Virus record (IMG/VR): IMGVR_UViG_3300044511_000220 | Span: 1 to 45,086 of that record | Reading direction: 5' to 3' (one strand) | Source: a virus | Length of the DNA stretch: 45,086 nucleotides | Part shown: one piece after another, positions 34,642-44,783 of the stretch | How the letters are laid out: each line of letters opens with the position of its first letter | Numbering within the stretch: the stretch's first letter is position 1 | Made by a program: the position numbers and the translations under genes | The notes under the pieces: generated by a model | Told to the model about the DNA's origin: nothing | What the model saw: the letters and a program-made list of their open reading frames with translations, nothing else | Database searches by the model: none

Positions 34642-34647
34642 GACGTG

Positions 34648-35019
34648 CTACGCTCGCGCCGCGTCGCGGGCGGCAAGGGCTTCGCCCGCCGCATAAAGCG
34701 GAGAATTCTCCGCAAGCGAATTGTCCGGGGCTTCGTCCGCTCCGCCCGCCGCATACGTTCCGCCGTAGCGGGCTGCAATGCGGGCCTCTTGCCCGTAGGT
34801 TTCGGGGCTGTTTTCCAGATAGGGCGTGACGCCGTTTCCCGCCCGTTCCCACGCAAGGGCAATGTCAGCCGCCTTGCGGCGAGCGTCCACTGTCAGGGCA
34901 AGCCAAGCGGCCATGCGCCGCCCGTAGGCACGGGCACTCGCCCTATCCGCGAGGGAAACGCGCGCCCCGATAGGGCGCGCAAGGTTGCGTTGAAGGTTTT
35001 TAATGGCGAGTGTTTGCAT
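34648..35019 (-). CDS. Ala/Arg-rich small protein
   Basis: 123 residues, helical, rich in Ala and Arg (NLARPIGARVSLADRASARA, then YGRRMAAWLALTVDARRKAA). No family recognised. The start is fixed by the promoter: the -10 box ends 7 nt before this ATG and no other Met fits. Overlapping frames on both strands in this GC-rich stretch are shadows. Confidence 0.7.
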   Translation of the reverse strand: MQTLAIKNLQRNLARPIGARVSLADRASARAYGRRMAAWLALTVDARRKAADIALAWERAGNGVTPYLENSPETYGQEARIAARYGGTYAAGGADEAPDNSLAENSPLYAAGEALAARDAARA

Positions 35020-35026
35020 GGCGGAC

Positions 35027-35054
35027 AGAATATCAAAAGCGCGGGGGTTGTCAA
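35027..35054 (-). promoter_or_regulatory. Leaderless promoter
   Basis: -35 TTGACA, 16-nt spacer, -10 TATTCT, 7 nt to the ATG at 35019. A-tract repeat copy 2 lies just upstream. Confidence 0.75.
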
Positions 35055-35096
35055 TAGGGCGGATGCACTTTTTTTTAACTTTTTTTATGCGCCGTG
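35050..35096 (-). repeat. 47-nt direct repeat, copy 2 (A-tract element)
   Basis: Second copy of the element at 34562-34608; again it ends at the -35 box of a promoter. Confidence 0.7.
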
Positions 35097-35118
35097 TAAC
35101 CCCTTGCGCCGCAAGCGT

Positions 35119-35349
35119 TTAGCCTTCGTCCCGGTAATCGTCCGCCTCGCGCAAGTTGTAATCGGCGAAGTCATCACTTCCGCCGCCATCACCCGGCCAA
35201 CCGCCGCCGTCGTAAGGCGCATCCTCGATTTCCGTGCGCGCTTCGTAAGCGGCTTCAAGGTGCGAATCCTCGCCGCCTTCGTGACTTTCAACTTGCGCTA
35301 ACCGCGCTTCCGCGCTTTCCGCGCTCAACTGGTCAAAGGGATTTGTCAT
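35119..35349 (-). CDS. Acidic small protein
   Basis: 76 residues, very acidic (about one third Asp/Glu) with a glycine stretch (YDGGGWPGDGGGSDDFADY). No family recognised. Such acidic small phage proteins sometimes mimic DNA, but there is no direct sign of that here. Start set by its leaderless promoter. Confidence 0.65.
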   Translation of the reverse strand: MTNPFDQLSAESAEARLAQVESHEGGEDSHLEAAYEARTEIEDAPYDGGGWPGDGGGSDDFADYNLREADDYRDEG

Positions 35350-35355
35350 GCGTTG

Positions 35356-35384
35356 AATTTAGGGGTTTTTCCCCGTCCCGTCAA
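35356..35384 (-). promoter_or_regulatory. Leaderless promoter
   Basis: -35 TTGACG, 17-nt spacer, -10 TAAATT, 6 nt to the ATG at 35349. Confidence 0.75.
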
Positions 35385-35388
35385 GCCC

Positions 35389-36267
35389 CTATTCGCTTTC
35401 GTCCGCGTCTGCTTCCGGGTCCGCCGGGGCCGGGGCGTCGTTAAGTATCCACTTCGCCGCCTTGCTCGCCGCGCCCGCCGCCACTACAACGGCGCGATTG
35501 TCCTCGCGCAAGGTTTTAATCCAACCGGCGAGATAAGCGGCGGAATTTTCAAAGGTGCTTTCAAGGCCGATGGAATTTCCGACGAAAGCGGCGGACATTT
35601 CCGCAATCAATTCCTCGCGCCCGTAACTGTCAGAGCCGAACATTTCCAACTTGGAAATGCCTTCCCGATTCAGGCGGGAAACGTGCCCGGTAGAGTGCGC
35701 CAATTCGTGAAACAGCGTCGAGTAGTAGGCTTCTGGCGCGCTGAATGACTCGCGGGAAGGCATACCAACGAAGTCCTCGGAGGGACGATAAAACGCCCGC
35801 CCTTGCCCGTGTCGAATCTCAGGCTTTTGCGGCATCCCCGCAACGATAGCTTCCGCCGCTTCAATGGGATTGAAAGCAACGCCAGCGGCGCGGGCGGGAA
35901 TGGCAATGCCCTCCGTTTGCGCCAAGTTGAATACGGTATAATACCGGAGCAATGGGATACGCTTCGGATTGCCCTTTGCGTCCAACTCTTTGCCGTCCAG
36001 AAATTTCCAGAAAACCACGGGAAAACCCTTCTCGCCGCGCTTCACGTTGCCGCCAAGCCCCGCCGCTTGGCGATAGGTCAGCCAATAGTTTGACTCAAAG
36101 CCCGCCACGGCGAGGATAAAAGCATTGATGCCCCGATAGGGCTTGCGGGAAATGAAATTGGCGGGCGCATCGGCATCGCCTTTCCAAGTCTTTTTCCACG
36201 GGACGGTTCCCGCTTCAAGAGCCGCAAGGATTCTATCCGTGACAATTTGAAAAACAGTGTCGCGCAT
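35389..36267 (-). CDS. ardC: ArdC-like antirestriction protein
   Basis: 292 residues. The N-terminal domain (VTDRILAALEAGTVPWKKTW, NFISRKPYRGINAFIL, YWLTYRQAAGLGG, KRGEKGFPVVFWKF) is the ssDNA-binding ArdC domain. The C-terminal domain has zincin motif HELAH at 187-191 with a downstream YGREELIAEMSAAF supplying the third ligand. ArdC proteins shield incoming DNA from restriction. The leaderless sigma-70 promoter fits expression early after entry. The last 15 residues are acidic and probably disordered. Confidence 0.9.
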   Translation of the reverse strand: MRDTVFQIVTDRILAALEAGTVPWKKTWKGDADAPANFISRKPYRGINAFILAVAGFESNYWLTYRQAAGLGGNVKRGEKGFPVVFWKFLDGKELDAKGNPKRIPLLRYYTVFNLAQTEGIAIPARAAGVAFNPIEAAEAIVAGMPQKPEIRHGQGRAFYRPSEDFVGMPSRESFSAPEAYYSTLFHELAHSTGHVSRLNREGISKLEMFGSDSYGREELIAEMSAAFVGNSIGLESTFENSAAYLAGWIKTLREDNRAVVVAAGAASKAAKWILNDAPAPADPEADADESE

Positions 36268-36273
36268 GGGTTA

Positions 36274-36301
36274 AAAGTAAGGGCTTTTTAGGTTTTGTCA
36301 A
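36274..36301 (-). promoter_or_regulatory. Leaderless promoter of ardC-like gene
   Basis: -35 TTGACA, 16-nt spacer, -10 TACTTT, 6 nt to the ATG. Confidence 0.75.
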
Positions 36302-36304
36302 GTG

Positions 36305-36481
36305 TTAATACGGGCAATTATCACCCGTGCAGCAAGGGCAAAGTGTAGCCGTGCAATGCGGACAAACCGGAACAACGGCATTTTCGCGTTCGCTTTCCTC
36401 GTCGCAATGCGCGCAAGTAAAAACCGCGCGCCGCTCAATTTCGCCCGTGAACTCGTTCAAGTCTGTTAAGATAATTCGCAT
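36305..36481 (-). CDS. 58-residue Cys-rich zinc-finger-like protein
   Basis: 58 residues, found by following the promoter. It reads MRIILTDLNEFTGEIERRAV at the start and contains CAHC, CPHC and CPCC, with a final Cys near the C-terminus, so a rubredoxin-like or double zinc-ribbon fold is likely. No paralog in the window. The promoter places the start exactly. Confidence 0.75.
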   Translation of the reverse strand: MRIILTDLNEFTGEIERRAVFTCAHCDEESERENAVVPVCPHCTATLCPCCTGDNCPY

Positions 36482-36487
36482 AAGTGC

Positions 36488-36515
36488 AATTTAAGACTTT
36501 TTTAGGCTTTGTCAA
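36488..36515 (-). promoter_or_regulatory. Leaderless promoter
   Basis: -35 TTGACA, 16-nt spacer, -10 TAAATT, 6 nt to the ATG at 36481. Confidence 0.75.
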
Positions 36516-36637
36516 ATACTTTTTTAGCCTTTATCCTTTACCGTTAAAGGTATCCGTGCATCCTTCGGTCCCCTACCCTTCGCGTGTTACCGCTAGTCAG
36601 GCTGTAAGTGTCGCCGCCACTTGTGTTCGGAAATTGT
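36516..36637 (-). ncRNA. Putative non-coding RNA D
   Basis: A cassette-type promoter directs transcription to begin near A36637, but no start codon follows and no frame of useful length is open. The roughly 120-nt product would end before the next promoter and carries the hairpin CCTTTA-ACGG-TAAAGG near its 3' end (36535-36550). The overlapping 70-codon minus frame (36544-36756) has a different start and is judged a shadow. No known RNA family recognised. Confidence 0.5.
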
Positions 36638-36643
36638 AGGTTT

Positions 36644-36671
36644 AGTCTAAGGCTTTTTGCGCCCTTGTCAA
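36644..36671 (-). promoter_or_regulatory. Promoter of putative RNA D
   Basis: -35 TTGACA, 16-nt spacer, -10 TAGACT; predicted start 36637. Confidence 0.65.
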
Positions 36672-36688
36672 GAGTTAATGCGGGCGGA

Positions 36689-36889
36689 TTATTCGCCAGA
36701 GCCATCGCGCCTTGCAAGGGCAACCCGCCCGCGAAGAAACTCGATTGCCGTTTCAAGCGACACGTTCAGACGGGCGAAATGGACAAGGTTTTCCGCGCAA
36801 GCCGCCGTATCGGACGTGCAAAACAGGGTGAAGTTGTCGTGCGCCAACGGTGCGCCGCACAAGGGGCAATCGGAATTGAGCGTTTGCAT
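36689..36889 (-). CDS. 66-residue zinc-binding-like protein
   Basis: 66 residues beginning MQTLNSDCPLCGAPLAHDNF. The CPLC pair followed by FCTSDTAAC gives four possible ligands, like a small zinc finger. The C-terminus is Arg-rich and ends acidic. Start fixed by its leaderless promoter. Function unknown. Confidence 0.7.
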   Translation of the reverse strand: MQTLNSDCPLCGAPLAHDNFTLFCTSDTAACAENLVHFARLNVSLETAIEFLRGRVALARRDGSGE

Positions 36890-36895
36890 AGATTC

Positions 36896-36923
36896 AATGT
36901 AAGGGTTTTTCGCGCCTTGTCAA
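36896..36923 (-). promoter_or_regulatory. Leaderless promoter
   Basis: -35 TTGACA, 16-nt spacer, -10 TACATT, 6 nt to the ATG at 36889. Confidence 0.75.
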
Positions 36924-36932
36924 GCGCGCCCC

Positions 36933-37124
36933 CTATCGGGGGAAATCATCTTCAGGATGCGGCACGGGCGGGCCGGAATAAGACGGGTTAGGTTCCCACG
37001 TATCAAAATCCGTCAAAATCCATGCCCTTTCCGGGCGCGTTGCGCCGTAGTTACGGGCGTATTCCCGGCACGCTTCGGAAACGGTTGCGGGGCGGTCCTC
37101 GTCGAATTCAACAGGATTGAACAT
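36933..37124 (-). CDS. 63-residue orphan protein
   Basis: 63 residues, acidic and Pro-rich at the C-terminus (WEPNPSYSGPPVPHPEDDFP). No family recognised. The start agrees with the promoter geometry. Confidence 0.6.
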   Translation of the reverse strand: MFNPVEFDEDRPATVSEACREYARNYGATRPERAWILTDFDTWEPNPSYSGPPVPHPEDDFPR

Positions 37125-37130
37125 GGGATG

Positions 37131-37159
37131 ATTAAAAGGGAATTTTGCCCCCTTGTCAA
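37131..37159 (-). promoter_or_regulatory. Leaderless promoter
   Basis: -35 TTGACA, 17-nt spacer, -10 TTTAAT, 6 nt to the ATG. The -35 box contains the TGA stop of the gene before it. Confidence 0.65.
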
Positions 37160-37434
37160 GCGTTCGCCGGAAGGCGGCGCGCGTCCAACTGCCAGCCCCT
37201 ACGGGGCGGGCGGGCGTTCACCGTCCACGTCGGCACTCCCCAGCCGTTCGGGTTATGACTGGCGACAAAAACCGTCCAATCGGCGGGGATGACGGCGCGC
37301 ACGTCCGCAACGTGCGCGTCAGTGGGTTGCACCGTGTCAGTGTAAAGGTCGGCCCTATCCCCGTTCACGTCCCGGTAAAAGTTCACAGTGCGCCCACCGG
37401 GGGTTTGACGCGAGAAGCGAAAGAATGAGTCCAT
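37156..37434 (-). CDS. Small protein, paralog of 42821 gene
   Basis: 92 residues. Middle segment (HVADVRAVIPADWTVFVASH, then NGWGVPTWTVNARP) matches the 78-residue protein at 42821 (DVADFASILPADWRVSVASD, then YGWGVPTWVLYARP). The pair is a duplicated family with no known function. The stop codon lies within the -35 box of the next promoter. Confidence 0.7.
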   Translation of the reverse strand: MDSFFRFSRQTPGGRTVNFYRDVNGDRADLYTDTVQPTDAHVADVRAVIPADWTVFVASHNPNGWGVPTWTVNARPPRRGWQLDARRLPANA

Positions 37435-37440
37435 GCGTTG

Positions 37441-37468
37441 AATATAAGGGTTTTTTAACGTCTGTCAA
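37441..37468 (-). promoter_or_regulatory. Leaderless promoter
   Basis: -35 TTGACA, 16-nt spacer, -10 TATATT, 6 nt to the ATG at 37434. The -35 box abuts the 3' end of RNA A. Confidence 0.75.
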
Positions 37469-37586
37469 GTCGGAGCGTGGCGGCTAACTTAAAGGGGCAT
37501 TTCTCACATCCGTTCAGCCGGGGCTTGCCCGACATTCCGTTAGTAACCCCTCCCGATACTGGGAGTCTCCCCGCCACGCACCCGAC
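37469..37586 (-). ncRNA. Structured non-coding RNA A (118 nt)
   Basis: A cassette promoter sets the start at G37586. The RNA begins GTCGGGTGCGTGGCGG and ends CCGCCACGCTCCGAC, so its two ends pair over about 14 bp with one bulge. Inside are CTCCC/GGGAG (37550-37565, 6-nt loop), GGGC/GCCC (37521-37530) and CTAAC/GTTAG closing the core next to the end stem. No open frame. The next promoter starts at the very next base. It shares AATGTCGGGC and GAGAAATGCC with RNA B. No known family recognised. Confidence 0.75.
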
Positions 37587-37592
37587 AAAAGG

Positions 37593-37620
37593 ATATTAAG
37601 GGTTTTTAACGCCCCGTCAA
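37593..37620 (-). promoter_or_regulatory. Promoter of RNA A
   Basis: -35 TTGACG, 16-nt spacer, -10 TAATAT; predicted start G37586. The -35 box lies in the last codons of the 75-residue gene. Confidence 0.75.
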
Positions 37621-37833
37621 GCCGGGAATCTTGCCCGCGAGCACGGCGTCACGAAAGGCAAGCCGCCCGCGAACCGCGCTCCGCACGTCAAAGCGCGCCG
37701 CGTGAGCGTGCCCGCTGGTCCGCCCGTGCACGCGCACCGCGTCACGCAAGGCATCCTTCGTCACGCGGAGCAAAAGGAATGACGCATAGTGCGCCGCGTC
37801 AAAGGCGGTGTCGGTAGCAAAATTCAGTTGCAT
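37606..37833 (-). CDS. 75-residue basic orphan protein
   Basis: 75 residues, Arg/His/Ala-rich (RDAVRVHGRTSGHAHAARFD). No family recognised. Basic charge would suit nucleic-acid binding, but there is no motif. Start set by its promoter; the gene end holds the -35 box of RNA A. Confidence 0.65.
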   Translation of the reverse strand: MQLNFATDTAFDAAHYASFLLLRVTKDALRDAVRVHGRTSGHAHAARFDVRSAVRGRLAFRDAVLAGKIPGLTGR

Positions 37834-37839
37834 AGGTGC

Positions 37840-37868
37840 AATTTAGGCGTTTTTACCTCCGCCGTCAA
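37840..37868 (-). promoter_or_regulatory. Leaderless promoter
   Basis: -35 TTGACG, 17-nt spacer, -10 TAAATT, 6 nt to the ATG at 37833. Confidence 0.75.
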
Positions 37869-37876
37869 GCCCCCGC

Positions 37877-38074
37877 CTATGCGGGACGAATCTTCACTCC
37901 CTCAACACGGGTGACTTCGCCCCGGCCAATCTTTTTTGCCAGCAACGCCAACTCGATTTCATTCCGCCCGCCGTTGCGGATGGTGGCGCGATACGTTACG
38001 CCCCCGCGCGCGTAAAAGACGGACAAATGCGAAAAGGTTGCGGTGGGGAGGGAGGGAATGAGGATTTTGAACAT
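37877..38074 (-). CDS. 65-residue protein, possible paralog of 38811 gene
   Basis: 65 residues. It has a central GVTYRATIRNGG strand and a KKIGRGEVTRVEG end; the 67-residue protein at 38811 has RTYHATFAANIP and EKRRGEVLLLSVADG in the same places, so both may share one small beta fold. Weak but consistent similarity. Function unknown. Confidence 0.65.
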   Translation of the reverse strand: MFKILIPSLPTATFSHLSVFYARGGVTYRATIRNGGRNEIELALLAKKIGRGEVTRVEGVKIRPA

Positions 38075-38080
38075 GGAGGC

Positions 38081-38109
38081 AAATTATGGGATTTGCGCTG
38101 TATTGTCAA
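38081..38109 (-). promoter_or_regulatory. Leaderless promoter
   Basis: -35 TTGACA, 17-nt spacer, -10 TAATTT, 6 nt to the ATG at 38074. The -35 box contains the stop of the 20-residue ORF. Confidence 0.75.
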
Positions 38110-38168
38110 GAGTTTTCGCCAACCCCGAAATAGGCAATCGAGCAAGCAAACAGGGCAAGTAGCATCAT
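38106..38168 (-). CDS. 20-residue hydrophobic peptide
   Basis: Reads MMLLALFACSIAYFGVGENS: one hydrophobic span with a Cys in a lipobox-like setting. A promoter-like TTGATT-N17-TACCAT ends 6 nt before the first ATG, and the TGA stop lies in the next -35 box, both as in the larger genes here. Membrane peptide likely if it is expressed. Very short, so moderate confidence. Confidence 0.5.
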   Translation of the reverse strand: MMLLALFACSIAYFGVGENS

Positions 38169-38174
38169 GGGATG

Positions 38175-38203
38175 ATGGTAACGAATTATTAGGGAATAAT
38201 CAA
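38175..38203 (-). promoter_or_regulatory. Leaderless promoter (weak -35)
   Basis: -35 TTGATT, 17-nt spacer, -10 TACCAT, 6 nt to the ATG at 38168. Confidence 0.5.
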
Positions 38204-38391
38204 TTCCCGCCCCAAAGTTGGCCGATGTCCTGATACGTTGCGCCGATGATAATTGCCTTGTAACAGGCATCATCAACGCGGAGCATTACATTGACATAAT
38301 CGGGCCGCACAATCCAGATTTCAGGAAAGGCGACAGGATGAAAAGGCGCGGGTTGCGCCGTGTCATTAGCAAAGGGTTTGTCAACTCTCAT
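38200..38391 (-). CDS. 63-residue orphan protein
   Basis: 63 residues from the ATG at 38389-38391, which lies inside the end of the 49-residue gene (ATGAGAGTTGA), so translation is probably coupled. A longer frame reaching 38460 lacks a promoter. The sequence (PEIWIVRPDYVNVMLRVDDA) predicts a small alpha/beta protein. No family recognised. Confidence 0.55.
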   Translation of the reverse strand: MRVDKPFANDTAQPAPFHPVAFPEIWIVRPDYVNVMLRVDDACYKAIIIGATYQDIGQLWGGN

Positions 38392-38530
38392 TTGAACCAC
38401 CGAATTTGGACTTCCGACGATAAGCCCCCGGCCCCTTGCGTGGCCGATGGATACGGCCAACGGTGGAATACGAAGGAATCATTTTGCGCGCCTTCACGTT
38501 GCGCGGCGCGGGGATGGAAAAGGATTTCAT
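38381..38530 (-). CDS. 49-residue very basic protein
   Basis: Reads MKSFSIPAPRNVKARKMIPS at the start and has a run of Lys and Arg (RPRKGPGAYRRKSKFGG). A leaderless promoter places the ATG at 38528-38530. A nucleic-acid or ribosome binding role is plausible because of charge only. It forms a two-gene operon with the 63-residue gene that overlaps its end. Confidence 0.6.
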   Translation of the reverse strand: MKSFSIPAPRNVKARKMIPSYSTVGRIHRPRKGPGAYRRKSKFGGSNES

Positions 38531-38536
38531 CCGGGC

Positions 38537-38565
38537 AATTTAAGCCCTTTTGTCCGCTATGTCAA
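38537..38565 (-). promoter_or_regulatory. Leaderless promoter
   Basis: -35 TTGACA, 17-nt spacer, -10 TAAATT, 6 nt to the ATG at 38530. Confidence 0.75.
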
Positions 38566-38597
38566 GCGTTAAGAGAGCGGGAGCATCAAATCAAAAT

Positions 38598-38780
38598 CTA
38601 CACCCCGCAAGCCCGCAGGAAGCGCGCCCGGTCAAATTGCGGATTGAAACCCGCAAACACCGTTGCCAACCCTTCAATGGCGCGAAGGGTGGCGTTTTCC
38701 GCCGCCTTACCCTCGGCGCGGCTGATTTCCAACGCGGCGTTGAGTTCGGCGGCGATTTCAATGAAATGCTTTTTGCTCAT
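38598..38780 (-). CDS. 60-residue helical orphan protein
   Basis: 60 residues, Ala/Glu-rich helices (FIEIAAELNAALEISRAEGK). No family recognised. Start fixed by its promoter. Confidence 0.65.
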   Translation of the reverse strand: MSKKHFIEIAAELNAALEISRAEGKAAENATLRAIEGLATVFAGFNPQFDRARFLRACGV

Positions 38781-38786
38781 GGGTGT

Positions 38787-38814
38787 ATTTTAAGATATTT
38801 TACTTCCCTGTCAA
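38787..38814 (-). promoter_or_regulatory. Leaderless promoter
   Basis: -35 TTGACA, 16-nt spacer, -10 TAAAAT, 6 nt to the ATG at 38780. The -35 box holds the stop codon of the gene before it. Confidence 0.8.
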
Positions 38815-39014
38815 GCCACCATTTCGATTTCCCCATCCGCCACGGAAAGCAATAGAACTTCACCCCTACGCTTTTCGACGAAATACAAACCACGCGCTTT
38901 GGCGTTTGGGATATTCGCCGCAAAGGTGGCGTGATAGGTCCGCCCCTTGTGAAAGGTCCACGAAGCCGGAAGGTGTGCCATTGAGCGGGTTTGAAGCATT
39001 TTGACTTTGTGCAT
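38811..39014 (-). CDS. 67-residue protein, possible paralog of 37877 gene
   Basis: 67 residues, small beta-rich protein (FHKGRTYHATFAANIPNAKA) with a C-terminal GEVLLLSVADGEIEMVA. Its TGA stop is part of the next -35 box. Function unknown; see the 37877 gene for the weak similarity. Confidence 0.65.
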   Translation of the reverse strand: MHKVKMLQTRSMAHLPASWTFHKGRTYHATFAANIPNAKARGLYFVEKRRGEVLLLSVADGEIEMVA

Positions 39015-39020
39015 GGATGT

Positions 39021-39048
39021 ATTTTAGGGGATTTTGCGCCCTTGTCAA
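39021..39048 (-). promoter_or_regulatory. Leaderless promoter
   Basis: -35 TTGACA, 16-nt spacer, -10 TAAAAT, 6 nt to the ATG at 39014. Confidence 0.8.
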
Positions 39049-39061
39049 GCTACCCCACAAA

Positions 39062-39177
39062 AAACTTGCTCGGCTTATTGATTCTCACTTTAGGAGTCCT
39101 GCCCGCGAGCCGGGGGCTTTCCCTAGATACGCTCTTTGTCCTTGCGGACCGGTGGCAATCTGCACCGTCGAAAAAAG
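39062..39177 (-). ncRNA. 3' part of the RNA B transcript (RNA F)
   Basis: About 115 nt after the T-run that follows RNA B. It contains GTCC-GCAA-GGAC, CCCG/CGGG and GGCT/AGCC stems and then TTTTTT, so it looks like a second structured segment closed by a terminator. No frame and no own promoter seen. Could be read-through from RNA B or a separately processed RNA. Confidence 0.4.
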
Positions 39178-39397
39178 GTCGGATATGGCGGGATTTGAAC
39201 CCGCGACATTGCAAATTTGCCCAGCTACATTTCGGACAGTGTGACGTGTTTGCGTTCCCCCTTGCGCACCCGACATCTAAAGGTCGTCAAGGGGGTTCGG
39301 GCCACAAGTGAGAGTTACGCCTGAATTGACCGAGAGTTTTTGGCATTTCTCCCATGTTAAACCCATCACTTTACTTGTGAACCCTTACCCGCCCGAC
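39178..39397 (-). ncRNA. Structured non-coding RNA B with tRNA-like 3' part
   Basis: Promoter sets the start at G39397. The RNA begins GTCGGGCGGG and ends ATATCCGAC, followed by a T-run, so GTCGG/CCGAC can close it at about 220 nt. GGGTTC and ACAAGT in the 5' part pair with GAACCC and ACTTGT near position 100. The last 97 nt (39178-39274) begin GTCGGGTGCG and carry a consensus T-arm (GCGGGTTCAAATCCCGC), but the acceptor and anticodon arms do not fold in the standard way. I therefore call a tRNA-like RNA, not a tRNA. A tmRNA-like RNA was considered and is unsupported. Confidence 0.6.
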
Positions 39398-39403
39398 ATT
39401 GAA

Positions 39404-39432
39404 AGCATAAGGCTTTTTTTTCTTCCCGTCAA
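39404..39432 (-). promoter_or_regulatory. Promoter of RNA B
   Basis: -35 TTGACG, 17-nt spacer, -10 TATGCT; predicted start G39397. Confidence 0.7.
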
Positions 39433-39434
39433 GT

Positions 39435-39628
39435 CCCGCCTTTGAAATTGTTTGGGCGCGTATCGCTCTCCCCCTCGCGGCCTTCCTTATATTGTTTGCG
39501 CGGTGGAATCGGCTCACCCGCGTTTGTTCATTTTTTCCGTTCTGGGTTTCGGCTACTCAATACGGGGTCAACTTTCGTTGGTGGTGCCGCACTTTGGCTT
39601 ATTCCCGCACACGGTTCAAACGAACGCT
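39435..39628 (-). ncRNA. Putative non-coding RNA G
   Basis: A cassette promoter places the start at A39628; about 190 nt follow without an open frame until the promoter of RNA B. A GTTC-GTTT-GAAC hairpin is near the 5' end, and CGCG/CGCG and GCGCC/GGCG pairs occur toward the 3' end. The only ATG gives five codons. Structure is less clear than in RNAs A-C. Confidence 0.5.
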
Positions 39629-39634
39629 AAAACA

Positions 39635-39662
39635 AAGATAATGTTTTTTTTGTCCCTGTCAA
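39635..39662 (-). promoter_or_regulatory. Promoter of putative RNA G
   Basis: -35 TTGACA, 16-nt spacer, -10 TATCTT; predicted start A39628. Confidence 0.65.
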
Positions 39663-39671
39663 TACCGCACT

Positions 39672-39935
39672 TCAAACATCCGTTGCCCGTCGCGCGCCAA
39701 CCTTCGCCGTCGCCGCGCTCGCGCCCAACGGGGCGGAAAACCAACAGACATTCCTATCGGAATCCCACGCTTGCCAAGTGAAGCGTCGCCCCTCAAAAGT
39801 CAGCACCTTGCGTGTCAGCTTCTTAACATCATCCCACCCGTTAGGGCAATTTACCGTAAGATATTCAAGCCCAACGTCGGGACGCACGGAATGAATGACG
39901 GGGATTTCATCGGGGATGATGGAAGCGGTGGGCAT
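39672..39935 (-). CDS. 87-residue orphan protein
   Basis: 87 residues from MPTASIIPDEIPVIHSVRPD; the frame is open further upstream, but the promoter points to this ATG. Middle part VNCPNGWDDVKKLTRKVLTF predicts a small alpha/beta fold. No family recognised. Confidence 0.65.
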   Translation of the reverse strand: MPTASIIPDEIPVIHSVRPDVGLEYLTVNCPNGWDDVKKLTRKVLTFEGRRFTWQAWDSDRNVCWFSAPLGASAATAKVGARRATDV

Positions 39936-39941
39936 GGATGT

Positions 39942-39970
39942 ATTTTGGGGCTTTTTAAGCCGCCCGTCAA
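39942..39970 (-). promoter_or_regulatory. Leaderless promoter
   Basis: -35 TTGACG, 17-nt spacer, -10 CAAAAT, 6 nt to the ATG at 39935. Confidence 0.65.
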
Positions 39971-40031
39971 GAGCCTTATTCGTTCCATTGCAACTCAACC
40001 CCCAACACCAAGCCTAAAAGAAGCAAAGTCA

Positions 40032-40415
40032 TTAGGCGTTGCAATCGCAAGCGTCGCGAAAGCACAAGGGCTGGAAAAGGCTTCCGATGTTCGCGTCGCC
40101 CGTCGCCTCAAAGGAGCGTTCAAAGTCCGCCCGCCCGTCATAAGTGGCGCGGCACGAAATGATTTTCGCGTCAGGCACGGCATCAAAGAGGGCTTTGAAC
40201 AAATCCCGGTGCGCGTGCCAACACGCGGCGGCAACGCGCCGCCCCGTATGGCCCCGGCGTCCACCCGGCCCCTTTGAGCTTTTGACGGTCAAAGTGAACT
40301 GAAAACCCTTACCTTGCGGGGCGATATACCGGAAGGCCAAGTTGCCGTGGTAGGCTTGGTTTGCGGTGGCGAGGGCGGCGTGAAGCTGCGGGGCATTGAT
40401 GTTACGTGCAATCAT
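40032..40415 (-). CDS. 127-residue phage protein of unknown function
   Basis: 127 residues. The order MIARNINAPQLHAALATANQ, FTLTVKSSKGPGGRRGHTGR, ACWHAHRDLFKALFDAVPDA, ATYDGRADFERSF resembles a phage hypothetical family I have seen elsewhere, without known function. Basic middle and conserved Cys/Trp/His. Start agrees with the promoter. Confidence 0.7.
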   Translation of the reverse strand: MIARNINAPQLHAALATANQAYHGNLAFRYIAPQGKGFQFTLTVKSSKGPGGRRGHTGRRVAAACWHAHRDLFKALFDAVPDAKIISCRATYDGRADFERSFEATGDANIGSLFQPLCFRDACDCNA

Positions 40416-40421
40416 AGGATG

Positions 40422-40449
40422 ATGATAAGGTTTTTTGTGATTCTGTCAA
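40422..40449 (-). promoter_or_regulatory. Leaderless promoter
   Basis: -35 TTGACA, 16-nt spacer, -10 TATCAT, 6 nt to the ATG at 40415. The -35 box holds the stop of the gene before it. Confidence 0.8.
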
Positions 40450-40676
40450 ATGACGCCCAACTCCCAAACAATGCAATCATGCAAAATCGAGCCGTTCGTG
40501 CGCTCAATGACGCGAAAAAAGGAATCGCTCTCACTATCGGAAAGTAAGCGGGCTTTGCTTACAGCATCCCGCCGGTTTGAAAATGAACCCTCGGCGGCAC
40601 AAAAGCCAAGCAGGAAATCATACCAACGGCCATCAACGGCCATTTTCTGAATAATGAAAGGGGTGTTGTCTTGCAT
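40446..40676 (-). CDS. 76-residue orphan protein
   Basis: 76 residues with DGRWYDFLLGFCAAEGSFSN and a Ser/Asp-rich centre. No family recognised. Its TGA stop is in the next -35 box. Confidence 0.65.
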   Translation of the reverse strand: MQDNTPFIIQKMAVDGRWYDFLLGFCAAEGSFSNRRDAVSKARLLSDSESDSFFRVIERTNGSILHDCIVWELGVI

Positions 40677-40682
40677 GGATAC

Positions 40683-40711
40683 AATTTACTGGGTTTTTCC
40701 CGCCTTGTCAA
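40683..40711 (-). promoter_or_regulatory. Leaderless promoter
   Basis: -35 TTGACA, 17-nt spacer, -10 TAAATT, 6 nt to the ATG at 40676. The -10 box contains the TAA stop of the gene before it. Confidence 0.8.
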
Positions 40712-40889
40712 ATGTTGGATTATGCCGGTTCATCCAATCCACGGCATCTCGCGCAGAATAGGCAAGGCACACCTGCCCGTCATTGAAAGTGATTCTGTGT
40801 GTCCACACCCTCACGGGCACAACACCCCCGCACAAAACGGGGAAAATCCCTTCCTCAATCGAGGCAACGTTATTTTCCGTATAGTACAT
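40686..40889 (-). CDS. 67-residue orphan protein
   Basis: 67 residues from MYYTENNVASIEEGIFPVLC; a longer frame to 40949 exists but the promoter fits only this ATG. Centre VRVWTHRITFNDGQVCLAYS is beta-like. No family recognised. The TAA stop is part of the next -10 box. Confidence 0.65.
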   Translation of the reverse strand: MYYTENNVASIEEGIFPVLCGGVVPVRVWTHRITFNDGQVCLAYSARDAVDWMNRHNPTFDKAGKTQ

Positions 40890-40895
40890 AACGGC

Positions 40896-40924
40896 AATAT
40901 ACAGAAAATTGCCGAGCTTGTCAA
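40896..40924 (-). promoter_or_regulatory. Leaderless promoter
   Basis: -35 TTGACA, 17-nt spacer, -10 TATATT, 6 nt to the ATG at 40889. The -35 box holds the stop of the gene before it. Confidence 0.8.
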
Positions 40925-41226
40925 ACGTTGGGTGGACTTGCCTTTGCAATCGCGGCGCGGGCTTCGTCCGCGACTTCGGACAACTCTGGATTCGCCTCTA
41001 GGATGTTCTCTAGTGCCGCGAGCAAGTTAGCGTGTGCATTGCAAGCCCGCACGATAAACTCAGCATTGGCGGCGGGCCGGGCATAGTGCGTCAACTCGTA
41101 ATCACCGCACTTAACAAGGGCGATTTGCTCAACACCATCACAGGCTTGGGGACTGTCGGAATCGGCGACGATACGAAGATTGTCCAACTCGCCTTCGACG
41201 CGCCACGGGCCGGGGGTGTGTTTCAT
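40921..41226 (-). CDS. HTPGPW-type phage protein
   Basis: 101 residues. The N-terminal HTPGPWRVE and the later ANAEFIVRACNAHANLLAAL are features of a widespread small phage protein family of unknown function. The overlap with the 67-residue gene's promoter shows how tightly this region is packed. Start fixed by promoter. Confidence 0.75.
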   Translation of the reverse strand: MKHTPGPWRVEGELDNLRIVADSDSPQACDGVEQIALVKCGDYELTHYARPAANAEFIVRACNAHANLLAALENILEANPELSEVADEARAAIAKASPPNV

Positions 41227-41232
41227 GTTTGT

Positions 41233-41260
41233 AGTATGCAGGAAATTTCAGGCTTGTCAA
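41233..41260 (-). promoter_or_regulatory. Leaderless promoter
   Basis: -35 TTGACA, 16-nt spacer, -10 CATACT, 6 nt to the ATG at 41226. The -35 box holds the stop of the lysozyme-like gene. Confidence 0.7.
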
Positions 41261-41658
41261 GACTTTGAAGGCTTCATTTGCGCTTTAACCTTGCGCCAAT
41301 AGGAATCGGTCAAATGCCTTTTGTTTCGCCAGTTCGGGCCGCTATTGAACAAACGCGCAAGAGGCTCGAAATCATTCTCCCGTAAGGCTTTACGCTCATA
41401 ACGCTCACAATAAGCCCGCAAAACCCGGATGGAATAGGCCAAGTCCGCGCAATCCTCGTATTTCCCGCCTATTTTATCCTTAACGTCAAGCCAGCAAACG
41501 CGGTGAATACAAAGGGGGCCGAGGGCTTTACCGTTATCGGAGAGGATTGGGCCAACGCGCCCGCCCGTTTCCACCTGATGTATTGCCCGCGCAAAGCCGT
41601 CGAAATCAGCGGCGCACAGACTCGGAAGGAAGGCGAACAAAAGGAGCGTTGTCCTCAT
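41257..41658 (-). CDS. Secreted lysozyme-like/transglycosylase protein
   Basis: 133 residues from ATG at 41656-41658 (the longer frame begins with TTG). It starts with a signal peptide (MRTTLLLFAFLPSLCAADF). The domain has AIHQVETGGRVGPILSDNGK with the likely catalytic Glu, ALGPLCIHRVCWLD, and a C-terminal RLFNSGPNWRN plus YWRKVKAQM, the pattern of lysozyme-fold enzymes that cut peptidoglycan. It follows the 65-residue gene, with an ATG just past its stop, so it shares that promoter. Lysis at the end of infection or entry-time wall remodelling are both possible. Confidence 0.75.
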   Translation of the reverse strand: MRTTLLLFAFLPSLCAADFDGFARAIHQVETGGRVGPILSDNGKALGPLCIHRVCWLDVKDKIGGKYEDCADLAYSIRVLRAYCERYERKALRENDFEPLARLFNSGPNWRNKRHLTDSYWRKVKAQMKPSKS

Positions 41659-41665
41659 TTGGGCT

Positions 41666-41863
41666 TTAATCAATCGTCCACTTGAATTTTTCGGGCGCGC
41701 TCACAGCTTCGGCCTCGCGCACCGTCGCCAGTGATTCGGCGATGAACTCCTTAGAAAACACGTCGGAGGGCAGGGTTTTAATGATGGATTCACCAATGAA
41801 CAAGCCGCTACGCAAGGCGCGGTATTCGCTTTCCGTAAGGGTAATGGAGGCGGTTGAAGTCAT
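41666..41863 (-). CDS. 65-residue orphan protein
   Basis: 65 residues, Ser/Glu-rich helices (SEYRALRSGLFIGESIIKTL). No family recognised. First gene of a two-gene unit with the lysozyme-like gene. Confidence 0.65.
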   Translation of the reverse strand: MTSTASITLTESEYRALRSGLFIGESIIKTLPSDVFSKEFIAESLATVREAEAVSAPEKFKWTID

Positions 41864-41869
41864 GGGTGT

Positions 41870-41897
41870 ATTATGCGGGTTTTTTGTTTCCTGTCAA
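41870..41897 (-). promoter_or_regulatory. Leaderless promoter
   Basis: -35 TTGACA, 16-nt spacer, -10 CATAAT, 6 nt to the ATG at 41863. Confidence 0.75.
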
Positions 41898-41903
41898 GTG
41901 GGA

Positions 41904-42009
41904 AAGGCGCGGCAGGATTTGAACCCGCACCTTTTCAGGATTACGTTTCGGCGGCTTCGGTTTCCCGTGCGCTTACTAGGTAGCGTCTATCCCATTCCGC
42001 CACAGAGCC
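41904..42009 (-). ncRNA. tRNA-like RNA (class II, Leu-like D-arm)
   Basis: Own promoter at 42030-42057. D-arm like tRNA-Leu (TGGCGGAATGGGATAGACGC), variable-arm hairpin CCT-GAAA-AGG and T-arm GCGGGTTCAAATCCTGC are clear. But the expected acceptor ends GGCTCTG and CGCGCCT mispair, and 43 nt lie where a 17-nt anticodon arm should be, containing CGCT/AGCG and CGG-GAAA-CCG stems. Total about 106 nt. So a degenerate or modified tRNA, or an RNA that mimics one. No CCA end encoded. Confidence 0.55.
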
Positions 42010-42029
42010 AAAGAGCAAATGATGTTTTG

Positions 42030-42057
42030 AGTATGCAGGATTTTTTCACCTTGTCAA
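42030..42057 (-). promoter_or_regulatory. Promoter of tRNA-like RNA
   Basis: -35 TTGACA, 16-nt spacer, -10 CATACT; predicted start near 42023, about 14 nt before the tRNA-like body. The -35 box holds the stop of the 83-residue gene. Confidence 0.65.
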
Positions 42058-42305
42058 TCCCACCCGTAGCATCCACAATAATAGGAGTCTCGCTCCCGTG
42101 TGGGACAATGTTCAAAATAGGGTAGGTTGGAGTTACTATCCACGATGGCGTGATTACCATACGTGCAAGACGCTTTCCGGCCAGTCAAATCGGGCATGGG
42201 AGCCTCGATATACGCGCCGGGGTCAAGTCCCGCACAAATCGCGCAACAGGGCTTCTTATCAAAAGAAGCGTTGGCCGCATGGCCGCATTTCATAATGGGT
42301 ATCAT
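42054..42305 (-). CDS. 83-residue Cys-rich protein
   Basis: 83 residues. Eight Cys and several His (MKCGHAANAS, CCAICAGLD, SCTYGNHAI, HCPTRERDSYYCGCYGWD) suggest one or two zinc sites. The N-terminal CGHAAN...CAIC pattern resembles small zinc-ribbon proteins of phages. Start agrees with promoter; stop lies in the next -35 box. Confidence 0.7.
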   Translation of the reverse strand: MIPIMKCGHAANASFDKKPCCAICAGLDPGAYIEAPMPDLTGRKASCTYGNHAIVDSNSNLPYFEHCPTRERDSYYCGCYGWD

Positions 42306-42311
42306 GGGTTA

Positions 42312-42339
42312 ATGATAAAAGATTTTTGCGTCCCGTCAA
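42312..42339 (-). promoter_or_regulatory. Leaderless promoter
   Basis: -35 TTGACG, 16-nt spacer, -10 TATCAT, 6 nt to the ATG at 42305. Confidence 0.75.
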
Positions 42340-42342
42340 GCC

Positions 42343-42417
42343 CTAATTGCCAATTCTGCTAACCCCCATTATCGAAATATCCCCATACGCTTCGGATGCC
42401 TTTCGTATTGCGTCCAT
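42343..42417 (-). CDS. 24-residue ORF at operon end
   Basis: Reads MDAIRKASEAYGDISIMGVS and ends RIGN. A TAGGA ribosome-like site lies 6 nt before the ATG, and it follows the 54-residue gene by 12 nt in the same direction. Too short for certainty. Confidence 0.35.
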   Translation of the reverse strand: MDAIRKASEAYGDISIMGVSRIGN

Positions 42418-42429
42418 TTTGTTCCTAGC

Positions 42430-42594
42430 TCAAACGTGGCAATAGGTTTGTTCGCCGTTTTTCTTATACGTAACTTCAAAAAGGTAGGTATTCAGAGCTT
42501 TTTCCATCATTTTAAGCGCAAAAACCTCGCGCTCGTTTTGCCTTGTGGCAGACTGGTTTTCTTCACCGTTGGGATTTTCGCGGTAGGCTTTCAT
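42430..42594 (-). CDS. 54-residue orphan protein, second in operon
   Basis: Reads MKAYRENPNGEENQSATRQN, with a Lys/Glu helix after it and KKNGEQTYCHV at the end. The ATG overlaps the stop of the 63-residue gene (ATGA), so it is translated by coupling and needs no promoter. No family recognised. Confidence 0.6.
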   Translation of the reverse strand: MKAYRENPNGEENQSATRQNEREVFALKMMEKALNTYLFEVTYKKNGEQTYCHV

Positions 42595-42782
42595 GCGCGG
42601 GGGCTATCTAATTCGCAAAAGACTTCAATGGCGAAGCTGGTATAATCATAATCCACCAATTCCAGTTCCCGCGCTTCGGACGCAAAGGCCGCGTTCAACT
42701 CGGCGCGGTTTGCCGCCGCCCAAGTGAAGAAGTGAGGGGGCAAAACCCTTGCTTCAAGTTCGTCAATGAGAATGTCTTGCAT
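42591..42782 (-). CDS. 63-residue orphan protein, first in operon
   Basis: 63 residues from MQDILIDELEARVLPPHFFT; the longer frame to 42863 has no promoter, whereas a consensus promoter ends 6 nt before this ATG. Acidic helical protein with Trp/Phe. No family recognised. Confidence 0.65.
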   Translation of the reverse strand: MQDILIDELEARVLPPHFFTWAAANRAELNAAFASEARELELVDYDYTSFAIEVFCELDSPRA

Positions 42783-42788
42783 GATGGG

Positions 42789-42817
42789 ATAATAGGGGCT
42801 TTTGGGAATCTTGTCAA
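42789..42817 (-). promoter_or_regulatory. Leaderless promoter
   Basis: -35 TTGACA, 17-nt spacer, -10 TATTAT, 6 nt to the ATG at 42782. Confidence 0.85.
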
Positions 42818-42820
42818 ACC

Positions 42821-43057
42821 TTATGCGGGGCGGGCATACAAAACCCACGTCGGAACGCCCCACCCATAGCCCCGCGTATCGGAGGCCACGGAAACGCGCC
42901 AGTCGGCGGGCAAGATACTGGCAAAGTCCGCCACGTCCGCATCGTCGGGTTTCTGCGTGTCCAAGCGAATTTCGGCGCGGGGTCCGCCCCCATCCTTGAA
43001 AAAGGCGGCAACGCGCCCCATCGGGGTTGAGCGGTTATGGGTGAAGTAGGGTGTCAT
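42821..43057 (-). CDS. Small protein, paralog of 37156 gene
   Basis: 78 residues from MTPYFTHNRSTPMGRVAAFF, the ATG 7 nt after a promoter. It shares DVADFASILPADWRVSVASD and YGWGVPTWVLYARP with the 92-residue gene at 37156. Function unknown; the pair suggests duplication within the small-gene region. Confidence 0.7.
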   Translation of the reverse strand: MTPYFTHNRSTPMGRVAAFFKDGGGPRAEIRLDTQKPDDADVADFASILPADWRVSVASDTRGYGWGVPTWVLYARPA

Positions 43058-43064
43058 GGGTGAC

Positions 43065-43093
43065 AATATAGGGAATCTTGCGGGCCTTGTCAA
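43065..43093 (-). promoter_or_regulatory. Leaderless promoter
   Basis: -35 TTGACA, 17-nt spacer, -10 TATATT, 7 nt to the ATG at 43057. Confidence 0.75.
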
Positions 43094-43112
43094 GCCTTAA
43101 AGCGTTAGGGTA

Positions 43113-43166
43113 TTATTCGTTCCCTTGCAAGATACCCAAGACGATACAAAGACAGAGAAACACCAT
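43113..43166 (-). CDS. 17-residue hydrophobic ORF
   Basis: Reads MVFLCLCIVLGILQGNE, a hydrophobic span, 4 nt after the 67-residue gene with AGGG just upstream. It resembles the 20-residue peptide at 38106 in being hydrophobic, but it is short enough to be chance. Confidence 0.3.
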   Translation of the reverse strand: MVFLCLCIVLGILQGNE

Positions 43167-43170
43167 CGCC

Positions 43171-43374
43171 CTAGTCCCCTTCGCACACGTCGCACCCGCC
43201 GAGGACTGTTTCCCATCGGCCCGTTTTGGGGTCGTAATGTTCAACGCTGACGCCACCCGCCCCCCGACAAAGCCAAATGCGACGACGTGGTTCCTTAACT
43301 TTCAAGGAACAGCATTGCCCGACGCAAAGGGTGGGCATTGCTTCGAGTTCCGCCGCGCTATATTCGCAAATCAT
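43171..43374 (-). CDS. 67-residue Cys-rich protein
   Basis: 67 residues from MICEYSAAELEAMPTLCVGQ. Six Cys, including VGQCCSLK and GGCDVCEGD, suggest a metal site. Start set by promoter; the longer frame to 43419 is not preferred. No family recognised. Confidence 0.65.
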   Translation of the reverse strand: MICEYSAAELEAMPTLCVGQCCSLKVKEPRRRIWLCRGAGGVSVEHYDPKTGRWETVLGGCDVCEGD

Positions 43375-43380
43375 GGGTGA

Positions 43381-43407
43381 ATGATAGAGGATTTTAAGCC
43401 TTGTCAA
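43381..43407 (-). promoter_or_regulatory. Leaderless promoter (15-nt spacer)
   Basis: -35 TTGACA, 15-nt spacer, -10 TATCAT, 6 nt to the ATG at 43374. Shorter spacer than the others. Confidence 0.6.
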
Positions 43408-43408
43408 T

Positions 43409-43716
43409 GTCGAGCCCACAAAAAATAACGGTTTTTCTCATTCCGTTGCAACGGAACAAGCGGGATAACCGTGGGTTTGCATCTGGCCTGACGCTTACCC
43501 GTGAACCCGAAGGGCGGCACTAGCCGTTATCCCTCATTTACTCAGTGCTTTCCTGAGAGGCAAGCAGAACTCTGGCCCTGCTATCAGTCGGCGATTTCGC
43601 TGTATTGAACCCGCGCCGAACCAAACCTACGCTGTTTTTGAGTTTAGGGAGTCTCACGGGGCGATTACCTTATCCCGTTGCGAGTCTCGTTCCGCTAGCA
43701 GAACTGCACTCGCGAC
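43409..43716 (-). ncRNA. Large structured non-coding RNA C (about 308 nt)
   Basis: Promoter sets the start at G43716. The RNA begins GTCGCGAG and CTCGAC lies just before the next promoter, so the ends can pair. Stems seen: GCGAGT/ACTCGC with GTTC/GAAC inside; an 8-bp GGGATAAC/GTTATCCC stem closing a 72-nt tRNA-sized domain; and the hairpin TTCCGTT-GC-AACGGAA followed by a T-run (TTATTTTTT) that may be the real end. No open frame of useful length. Not recognised as RNase P, 6S, tmRNA or a group I intron. Confidence 0.65.
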
Positions 43717-43722
43717 AATGTG

Positions 43723-43751
43723 AAATTAAATCTTTTTTGGGGCGGCGTCAA
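43723..43751 (-). promoter_or_regulatory. Promoter of RNA C
   Basis: -35 TTGACG, 17-nt spacer, -10 TAATTT; predicted start G43716. The whole promoter overlaps the end of the 62-residue gene, whose TAA stop is in the -10 box. Confidence 0.7.
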
Positions 43752-43914
43752 GAGCATACGGATTGATAAAGTTCTGCAAAAGATTACCGTCCGGCCCGAC
43801 AAAGAAGCGCAAACCGATGCAGTTAGGCAATCCTGCTTTGGTAGCCAATCGGATAGCTTGCTGGCGTTGCTCATCGTTCAAACGGGCGAAGGGAAGGGCG
43901 TATTCATTATTCAT
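43726..43914 (-). CDS. 62-residue orphan protein
   Basis: 62 residues; NDEQRQQAIRLATKAGLPNC followed by IGLRFFVGPDGNLLQNF predicts helix then beta hairpin. No family recognised. Its last codons carry the promoter of RNA C. Confidence 0.65.
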   Translation of the reverse strand: MNNEYALPFARLNDEQRQQAIRLATKAGLPNCIGLRFFVGPDGNLLQNFINPYALDAAPKKI

Positions 43915-43920
43915 ATATGC

Positions 43921-43948
43921 AGCATACAGGAATGTTGCGCGCCGTCAA
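43921..43948 (-). promoter_or_regulatory. Leaderless promoter
   Basis: -35 TTGACG, 16-nt spacer, -10 TATGCT, 6 nt to the ATG at 43914. The -35 box holds the stop of the 36-residue gene. Confidence 0.75.
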
Positions 43949-44055
43949 GCTGTAAAAACAACAGCAAGGCAACGAACGGAGGTAATGAGCATGGCGACAA
44001 TGGCGGGCCAGTAAAGCCAATGATTGAATGGGTCCTGAGAATCGGGGGTTTGCAT
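43945..44055 (-). CDS. 36-residue membrane protein
   Basis: Reads MQTPDSQDPFNHWLYWPAIV and continues with AMLITSVRCLAVVFTA, one membrane span. The ATG overlaps the previous stop by one base (TGATG), so translation is coupled to the 88-residue gene. Longer frames over this segment are shadows. Confidence 0.55.
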   Translation of the reverse strand: MQTPDSQDPFNHWLYWPAIVAMLITSVRCLAVVFTA

Positions 44056-44321
44056 CAATAGGTTTCCAGAACCACCTTGCCGTTCGGAAACGTCTCGAAA
44101 TGGCTCTTGCGGCCCGAAAAGTAGGTATTTCCAATCTTGAACCAATACCGGCCCCGCGAGAACCTTGTGGCGAGCAAATGAAGGCCGCGATTGACTTCCC
44201 GTAGCGAGCTTTTATCCTCTGCCGTCAACACGGTATTACGCTTGGCAAACACACGCTCGCCAACGGAAAAACCATTGATTTGTCCGTTTGTGAAGGCGTC
44301 AGAGGCTTGTTTGTAAGTCAT
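44055..44321 (-). CDS. 88-residue orphan protein
   Basis: 88 residues, basic, with a helical N-terminus (MTYKQASDAFTNGQINGFSV) and beta C-terminal part (YWFKIGNTYFSGRKSHFETF). No family recognised. First gene of a pair with the membrane peptide. Confidence 0.65.
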   Translation of the reverse strand: MTYKQASDAFTNGQINGFSVGERVFAKRNTVLTAEDKSSLREVNRGLHLLATRFSRGRYWFKIGNTYFSGRKSHFETFPNGKVVLETY

Positions 44322-44327
44322 GGAAAC

Positions 44328-44355
44328 AGAATAAAGAAAATTCGGGCCTTGTCAA
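44328..44355 (-). promoter_or_regulatory. Leaderless promoter
   Basis: -35 TTGACA, 16-nt spacer, -10 TATTCT, 6 nt to the ATG at 44321. The -35 box holds the stop of the 64-residue gene. Confidence 0.8.
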
Positions 44356-44546
44356 GCGTGGGGCGGCAAGACCTGTTGGAAAACAATGCCGCCCGATGAC
44401 AAATCGTGCATCAATTTACGCATGACGCCATTGATGGTTTTCTGGCCGGTAAGTTGCCGCAGAATGGCCGCATCCGCTTCGTTGACAACATATTCCAAAC
44501 GATTGCCATAGACTTCACGCACGTAAAATGGAATGATTTTCTTCAT
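44352..44546 (-). CDS. 64-residue orphan protein
   Basis: 64 residues. Translation probably relies on the GGGGGA ribosome site 5 nt before the ATG, which lies directly after the stop of the Cys-rich gene. Sequence (EADAAILRQLTGQKTINGVM) is helical. No family recognised. Confidence 0.65.
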   Translation of the reverse strand: MKKIIPFYVREVYGNRLEYVVNEADAAILRQLTGQKTINGVMRKLMHDLSSGGIVFQQVLPPHA

Positions 44547-44744
44547 TTAGTCCCCCTCAATCGTCTCGCCAAGCTCTACAAGCTCCCGCCGCCCGTCGCC
44601 GCCACTGGTGGCCCACCCGCAATAACAGCGGGCAAGCCCCTGATGATGGCCGCAATCGTCACAAACCCGAACGCCACAATAACGGGATGGCCACGCGGAT
44701 TCCGAACCACAAGCATCGCAACGGGTGGGTTGGGGGTCAATCAT
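44547..44744 (-). CDS. 65-residue double zinc-ribbon-like protein
   Basis: 65 residues from MIDPQPTRCDACGSESAWPS. Four cysteine clusters (CDAC, YCG, CDDC with two His, CYCG) look like two small zinc sites. The ATG is 6 nt after a consensus promoter; the longer frame to 44765 is not needed. The protein ends acidic. Confidence 0.7.
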   Translation of the reverse strand: MIDPQPTRCDACGSESAWPSRYCGVRVCDDCGHHQGLARCYCGWATSGGDGRRELVELGETIEGD

Positions 44745-44750
44745 GGGGAC

Positions 44751-44779
44751 AAAATAAGGTAACATGCCCCGCGAGTCAA
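44751..44779 (-). promoter_or_regulatory. Leaderless promoter
   Basis: -35 TTGACT, 17-nt spacer, -10 TATTTT, 6 nt to the ATG at 44744. Confidence 0.75.
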
Positions 44780-44783
44780 GCCT

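Follow-up and report, generated by a model that had tools for sequence, protein, structure and literature searches.

A conserved array of small phage genes with sigma-70-type promoters placed for leaderless mRNA

The array and its promoter geometry

The virus record IMGVR_UViG_3300044511_000220 of IMG/VR (positions 1 to 45,086; this whole stretch of 45,086 nucleotides (nt) is called the window here) carries a series of very small genes on its minus strand between 34648 and 44779. These genes are preceded by promoters of the sigma-70 type whose -10 box lies at a nearly constant distance from the start codon. A preliminary description of this DNA had counted 26 such genes and one more at 28206, with a gap between -10 box and ATG of 6 nt in 25 cases and 7 nt in two. 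Both the count and the gap figures were reproduced exactly; the 7-nt gaps belong to promoters 43093 and 35054. On the minus strand of the scanned array region (33001-45086) the strict pattern TTGACN-N15-17-TANNNT-N6/7-ATG had 21 matches and on its plus strand none, whereas 300 dinucleotide shuffles gave a mean of 0.007 matches and a maximum of 1. In positions 1-33000 the pattern occurred a single time, at 28780, upstream of the gene at 28206. Five off-consensus sites complete the count: CATAAT at 41897, CATACT at 41260, CAAAAT at 39970, TTTAAT at 37159 and a weak one, TTGATT/TACCAT, at 38203, whose open reading frame (ORF) has only 20 codons for amino acids (aa). A general sigma-70 consensus (TTGACA-like and TATAAT-like boxes, 16-18 nt apart) was found 39 times against 8.9 expected, and over the whole window the first ATG lay at exactly 6 nt for 20 of the 30 promoter-like sites on the minus strand.

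All window features described here lie on the minus strand, and each promoter-linked span is given with the promoter position as its upper number and the ATG in brackets. At the upstream end, leaderless genes with a gap of 6 nt occupy 44547-44779 (44744; the -35 box is at 44779), 44055-44355 (44321), 43726-43948 (43914), 43171-43407 (43374), 42591-42817 (42782) and 42054-42339 (42305). They are followed by two with off-consensus boxes at 41666-41897 (41863) and 40921-41260 (41226), and by 40686-40924 (40889), 40446-40711 (40676) and 40032-40449 (40415). Further downstream lie 38811-39048 (39014), 38381-38565 (38530), the weak site with its short ORF at 38106-38203 (38168), 37877-38109 (38074), 37606-37868 (37833), 37156-37468 (37434), 36933-37159 (37124), 36689-36923 (36889) and 36305-36515 (36481). 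The two genes with a gap of 7 nt are found at 42821-43093 (43057) and 34648-35054 (35019); the array genes with homologues in other viruses are described below. The promoter-linked ORFs have a median length of 67 aa. All but one of the 26 reach at least 45 aa, compared with 17% of all ATGs of the region on the plus strand and 37% on the minus strand. The promoter-linked ORFs are judged to be real genes.

The claim of one promoter per gene is strongly supported, with two caveats. Some array genes are second genes in small operons, as at the stop-start overlap TAAATG at 44546. In addition, seven more array-type promoters, absent from the preliminary description, do not face an ATG. At one of them, 34566, a leader of 51 nt precedes the coding sequence (34026-34566; ATG 34481), an exception to the leaderless rule. 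The other six head units that look non-coding. A site at 30665, with a gap of 8 nt to ATG 30628, was also missing from the earlier list.

Among the RNA-like units, the one at 37469-37620 is the most clearly structured. Its 118-nt RNA (37586-37469), with G as predicted first transcribed base (+1), folds end to end with z = -4.1 against mononucleotide shuffles, and its first G pairs with the last C; no Rfam match was found for this region. The remaining units fold less strikingly. They comprise a structured unit without ATG at 43460-43751 (predicted +1 G 43716), a tRNA-like unit at 41899-42057 with the box CATACT, and units at 39478-39662 (predicted +1 A 39628), 39171-39432 (predicted +1 G 39397) and 36516-36671 (predicted +1 A 36637), the last of which folds no better than shuffled sequence. 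T-arm-like tRNA pieces (GCGGGTTCAA) were observed in 41899-42023, 39171-39397 and 43460-43716; in the second of these, the T-arm-like 3′ end is followed by T6. The 41899 unit resembles tRNA-Leu with CTAG in the anticodon region, but lies below all thresholds (16 bits with the tRNA model, below the gathering score). These three units may be degenerate or disguised tRNAs. An identity of the array RNA units as tRNA, transfer-messenger RNA (tmRNA) or an Rfam family was rejected, as only sub-threshold T-arm-like and tRNA-like matches were obtained.

Conservation of the geometry in a virus family

A promoter-only scan of IMG/VR with a stricter pattern returned 49 loci. The site-rich ones were G008 (202,704 bp; 34 sites), G026 (202,882 bp; 50 sites), G015/G016 (186 and 108 kb), G022 and G011. 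A profile search of IMG/VR with the terminase large subunit (TerL), which defines the virus family and is encoded at 19490-21367 in the window, yielded at least 523 loci; the window TerL is 46% identical to that of G008 and 49% identical to that of G026. Homologous TerL, portal, PhoH, ERCC4-like and sigma-like proteins were found in shared order across the family. The promoter-only search and the protein search thus mostly lead to one and the same virus family. In 38 contigs picked by TerL alone, 90 pattern sites were counted versus 8 in a reversed control. The gap histogram of five TerL-picked contigs showed 40 sites at 6 nt, 7 at 7 nt and at most 3 elsewhere, with none at 6 nt in the reversed control. 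The possibility that the array is a peculiarity of one contig is refuted by the IMG/VR relatives and the TerL-picked contigs. Among 50,697 phage records no cultured or named relative was detected, the portal giving no match and the G026 TerL at most about 25% identity. By these searches, the family is large and uncultured, and its genomes reach about 200 kb; the 45-kb window probably represents part of a larger genome. Contigs considered as relatives because of an ArdC neighbour were unrelated and lacked the array.

Six promoter-linked genes of the window have promoter-linked homologues in relatives, with protein identities of 33-59%. The gene at 39672-39970 (ATG 39935) has its counterpart in G015, and the ArdC-like gene at 35389-36301 (ATG 36267) in G008. 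Four have theirs in G026: 38598-38814 (ATG 38780), 35119-35384 (ATG 35349), the metallophosphatase gene behind the 8-nt gap at 29885-30665 (ATG 30628) and the nucleoside deoxyribosyltransferase-like leaderless gene at 28206-28780 (ATG 28745). In all six orthologues the relative's promoter stands at a gap of 6 nt, while the spacer sequence has diverged, which argues that selection maintains the geometry. The alignments of 39935 and 38780 with their orthologues begin at residue 1, and 48 further promoter-linked homologue pairs were found among the relatives.

Sigma-70 promoters have six bases between the -10 box and +1. With a gap of 6 nt, the A of the ATG would thus be the first transcribed base, and in the two cases with 7 nt the predicted start lies one base away from it. 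In the window, 26 of the 27 cases have C or T at -1, and a pyrimidine at -1 followed by a purine at +1 is the usual initiator step. The seven promoters without a facing ATG likewise have a pyrimidine at -1 and a purine at +1 (7/7). In the relatives, a pyrimidine precedes the start in 26/27 (G008), 43/48 (G026), 15/16 (G015), 6/6 (G022) and 11/11 (G011) cases, compared with only 45/74 large late ORFs of the TerL family. Among ORFs of at least 45 aa starting at gap 6 in ten family contigs, there were 159 ATG starts, a single GTG and no TTG. Leaderless initiation demands AUG in E. coli and Caulobacter, whereas actinobacteria tolerate GUG (PMC9031893); the observed start codons fit the former behaviour and not the latter. 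The claim that the start codon has become part of the promoter geometry is strongly supported by the statistics, the pyrimidine(-1)-A(+1) step, the near-exclusive use of AUG and the conservation in orthologues. As far as sequence can tell, the reading of the array genes as leaderless mRNAs is well supported.

One of the site-rich loci, G011 (42.7 kb, L175-L177), stands apart. The family sigma-like protein, which is present in G008, G026, G015 and G022, was not found there by profile. G011 carries 11 promoters exactly 6 nt from an ATG, with C at -1 in all 11. Since G011 lacks the family sigma and is apparently unrelated, this arrangement may have evolved on more than one occasion. The arrays compared, that of G011 among them, share an A-tract that lies about 8-10 nt into the spacer.

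A probable late promoter class and the proposed expression programme

A different motif was found upstream of the late (structural) genes. The top hexamer there is GTGTAA, present in 8 of 30 upstream stretches of the window versus 0.44 expected. Candidate late promoters that lie no more than 50 nt from a gene start are at 32694, 26482, 19477, 14848, 13350, 12904, 8528, 8050 and 4299 (overall span 4294-32694). In seven family contigs the motif is enriched ahead of the structural genes, and it extends to AAGTGTAATA in G026 and AGTGTAA in G008, L208 and L203, and reads GTGTAA in L235 and L218. AGTGTAATA occurs 10, 8, 5 and 7 times in G026, G049, G050 and G054, versus 0, 0, 0 and 1 times in the reversed sequences; its exact form does not occur in the window. 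The gene at 23471-24145 encodes a divergent sigma-like protein, the probable reader of this motif. Homologues with 42-61% identity were found in every family TerL contig compared, and a profile detected the protein in 12 of 13 family contigs tested. The product matches Pfam Sigma70_r2 weakly (E = 5e-4, below the cut-off). Its AlphaFold model is of moderate quality (predicted local distance difference test score, pLDDT, 69), and sigma factors make up most of its best structural matches (E about 3e-3 to 1e-2), with those of the extracytoplasmic function (ECF) type in the lead. A PDB sequence search with its profile gave no match.

The geometry, its significance and conservation, the two motif classes and the sigma-like gene are all read from the sequence. 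We consider it likely that they reflect an early programme transcribed by the host sigma-70 RNA polymerase from one leaderless promoter per gene, and a late class directed by the phage sigma. The region of 34.6-45 kb would then be an early region of the host-takeover type. Host RNA polymerase with its housekeeping sigma would read the array early, on phage entry. Transcription of each gene or small operon would start from its own sigma-70-type promoter, on the A of the AUG itself, giving a leaderless mRNA, and the ribosome would bind the 5′ AUG directly, by 70S initiation. Transcripts may run on through the array to the strong intrinsic terminator-like site at 33980-34004, which lies past the array end, because no convincing terminator was found between array genes. 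The array genes lack Shine-Dalgarno sites, so an internal AUG of such a read-through transcript would initiate poorly. A separate promoter that puts +1 on the AUG of each gene would avoid this, and the layout of one promoter per gene would follow from leaderless translation. The phage sigma-like factor would then direct the late genes from GTGTAA/AAGTGTAATA, and their mRNAs would mostly carry leaders. The earlier suggestion of a separate early programme thus receives indirect support from the distinct late motif and the phage sigma-like factor, "early" itself being part of the interpretation.

Several points weigh against this interpretation. Among the array promoters, the six RNA-like units and the one gene with a leader are exceptions. 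Shine-Dalgarno sites are few before the late genes as well, which makes the difference in translation mode a matter of degree. The phage factor probably drives the GTGTAA/AAGTGTAATA class, a pairing drawn from their co-occurrence. The ribosomes of the host may not favour leaderless mRNA. Finally, G026 encodes a second protein with sigma-70 regions 2 and 4, which might read the array instead.

The last point leads to the alternative that survives best, although we regard it as unlikely: a second phage sigma or a modified polymerase would recognise these genuine promoters, and the array genes would form a middle or late class. Besides the G026 protein, the virus-specific spacer consensus with its A-tract could contact an extra factor. 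On the other hand, TTGACA, a spacing of 16-17 nt and TATAAT-like boxes are the housekeeping consensus, the late genes carry a different motif, and the window yielded no second sigma. Marginally less probable still are very short leaders, with the mRNA starting 2-5 nt before the ATG and the fixed gap reflecting compactness of the promoter. Real promoters do vary their start site by a few bases, and two genes have a gap of 7 nt and one (30665) a gap of 8 nt. Yet a gap of 6 nt is dominant in every family contig, the pyrimidine at -1 and A at +1 as well as the near absence of non-AUG starts point to the AUG itself, and the stem of the 37620 RNA starts exactly at the predicted +1. That the motif is mainly an operator or protein-binding repeat which happens to sit upstream of genes is very improbable, since the palindromic look of the window's spacer consensus (AAGG-N-AAAAA-CCTT) did not exceed a control in which the 3′ halves were dealt among sites, leaving column composition only, and spacers differ among family members while hexamers and gap are kept.

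The proposed leaderless early programme may be considered together with the RNA-related genes of G026. This genome (L186-L189) carries about 20 tRNAs, an RtcB ligase, a CCA-adding-enzyme-like protein and a HAD RNA-repair domain, a set that suggests tRNA or rRNA repair against host nucleases. A tmRNA lies at L186:8618-9001 (Rfam 140 bits, tag ANKVALRNAVDCGVVRGFAAFAMA). In G022, ARAGORN calls a tmRNA at L174:1418-1805, where Rfam shows tRNA only. It is conceivable, if rather doubtful, that a leaderless early programme is a family-wide strategy in which takeover genes are expressed without Shine-Dalgarno sites, perhaps while the phage or a host defence disables canonical initiation, with RtcB, the CCA-adding-enzyme-like protein and the tmRNA of G026 as partners in ribosome and tRNA repair.

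Host search and comparison with known systems

The family sigma was not found in 1,465 genomes of four phyla, those of a Flavobacteriales metagenome-assembled genome (MAG), an Oscillatoriales cyanobacterium, a Saccharibacteria MAG and a SAR116 alphaproteobacterium, a sampling that is uninformative on the host. A scan of GTDB genomes with the promoter pattern gave scattered single matches and one cyanobacterial repeat, and no host signal. The repeat, in the Oscillatoriales cyanobacterium RM2_1_1, is an element with the same leaderless geometry on five contigs (L083, L092, L106, L111 and L126) and is probably a mobile element.

If our interpretation is correct, the family would be a natural example, on a large scale, of dozens of genes that rely on leaderless initiation, kept over deep viral divergence. 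The advantage of leaderless initiation in early infection would become testable via the promoter-to-AUG spacing. For annotation, the geometry would strongly mark the correct start codons of very small phage genes, and the motif alone would separate early from late genes in an uncultured virus family.

The proposed late system resembles that of T4, where gp55 is a late sigma with the promoter TATAAATA. In both, a small, divergent phage sigma occurs along with a short late motif that lacks a clear -35 box. The family differs in its motif, GTGTAA/AAGTGTAATA, and in the ECF-type sigma factors that lead the fold matches. For the array, the early host-takeover region of SPO1 (Bacillus) and the pre-early and early regions of T5 (E. 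coli) are comparable in that many small, co-oriented genes are served by several host-sigma promoters. SPO1 and T5 use leaders with Shine-Dalgarno sites, and no 6-nt peak between -10 box and ATG was found in the early-type stretches of the two phages that we tested. The arrangement had been called very unusual; this holds against known phages but not within the family, where it is the rule. Phage mRNAs that start at the AUG are known from lambda and from Thermus phages such as phiYS40, whose host is rich in leaderless genes. In lambda this concerns the single gene cI, and in phiYS40 middle and late genes. Leaderless phage mRNAs and promoter arrays are both known; as far as we found, their family-wide combination is apparently undescribed, and our search of the open literature returned no phage with such an architecture. 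Bacterial counterparts in spacing are the TA-like leaderless genes of Actinobacteria and Deinococcus-Thermus, in which the -10 box adjoins the ORF. Their TANNNT box precedes the start codon by about 12 nt (PMC3160421, PMC12340547), as in the phage array. The array differs from them in that it is viral, has a strong -35 box and starts almost strictly with AUG, whereas the actinobacterial genes also use GUG (PMC9031893).

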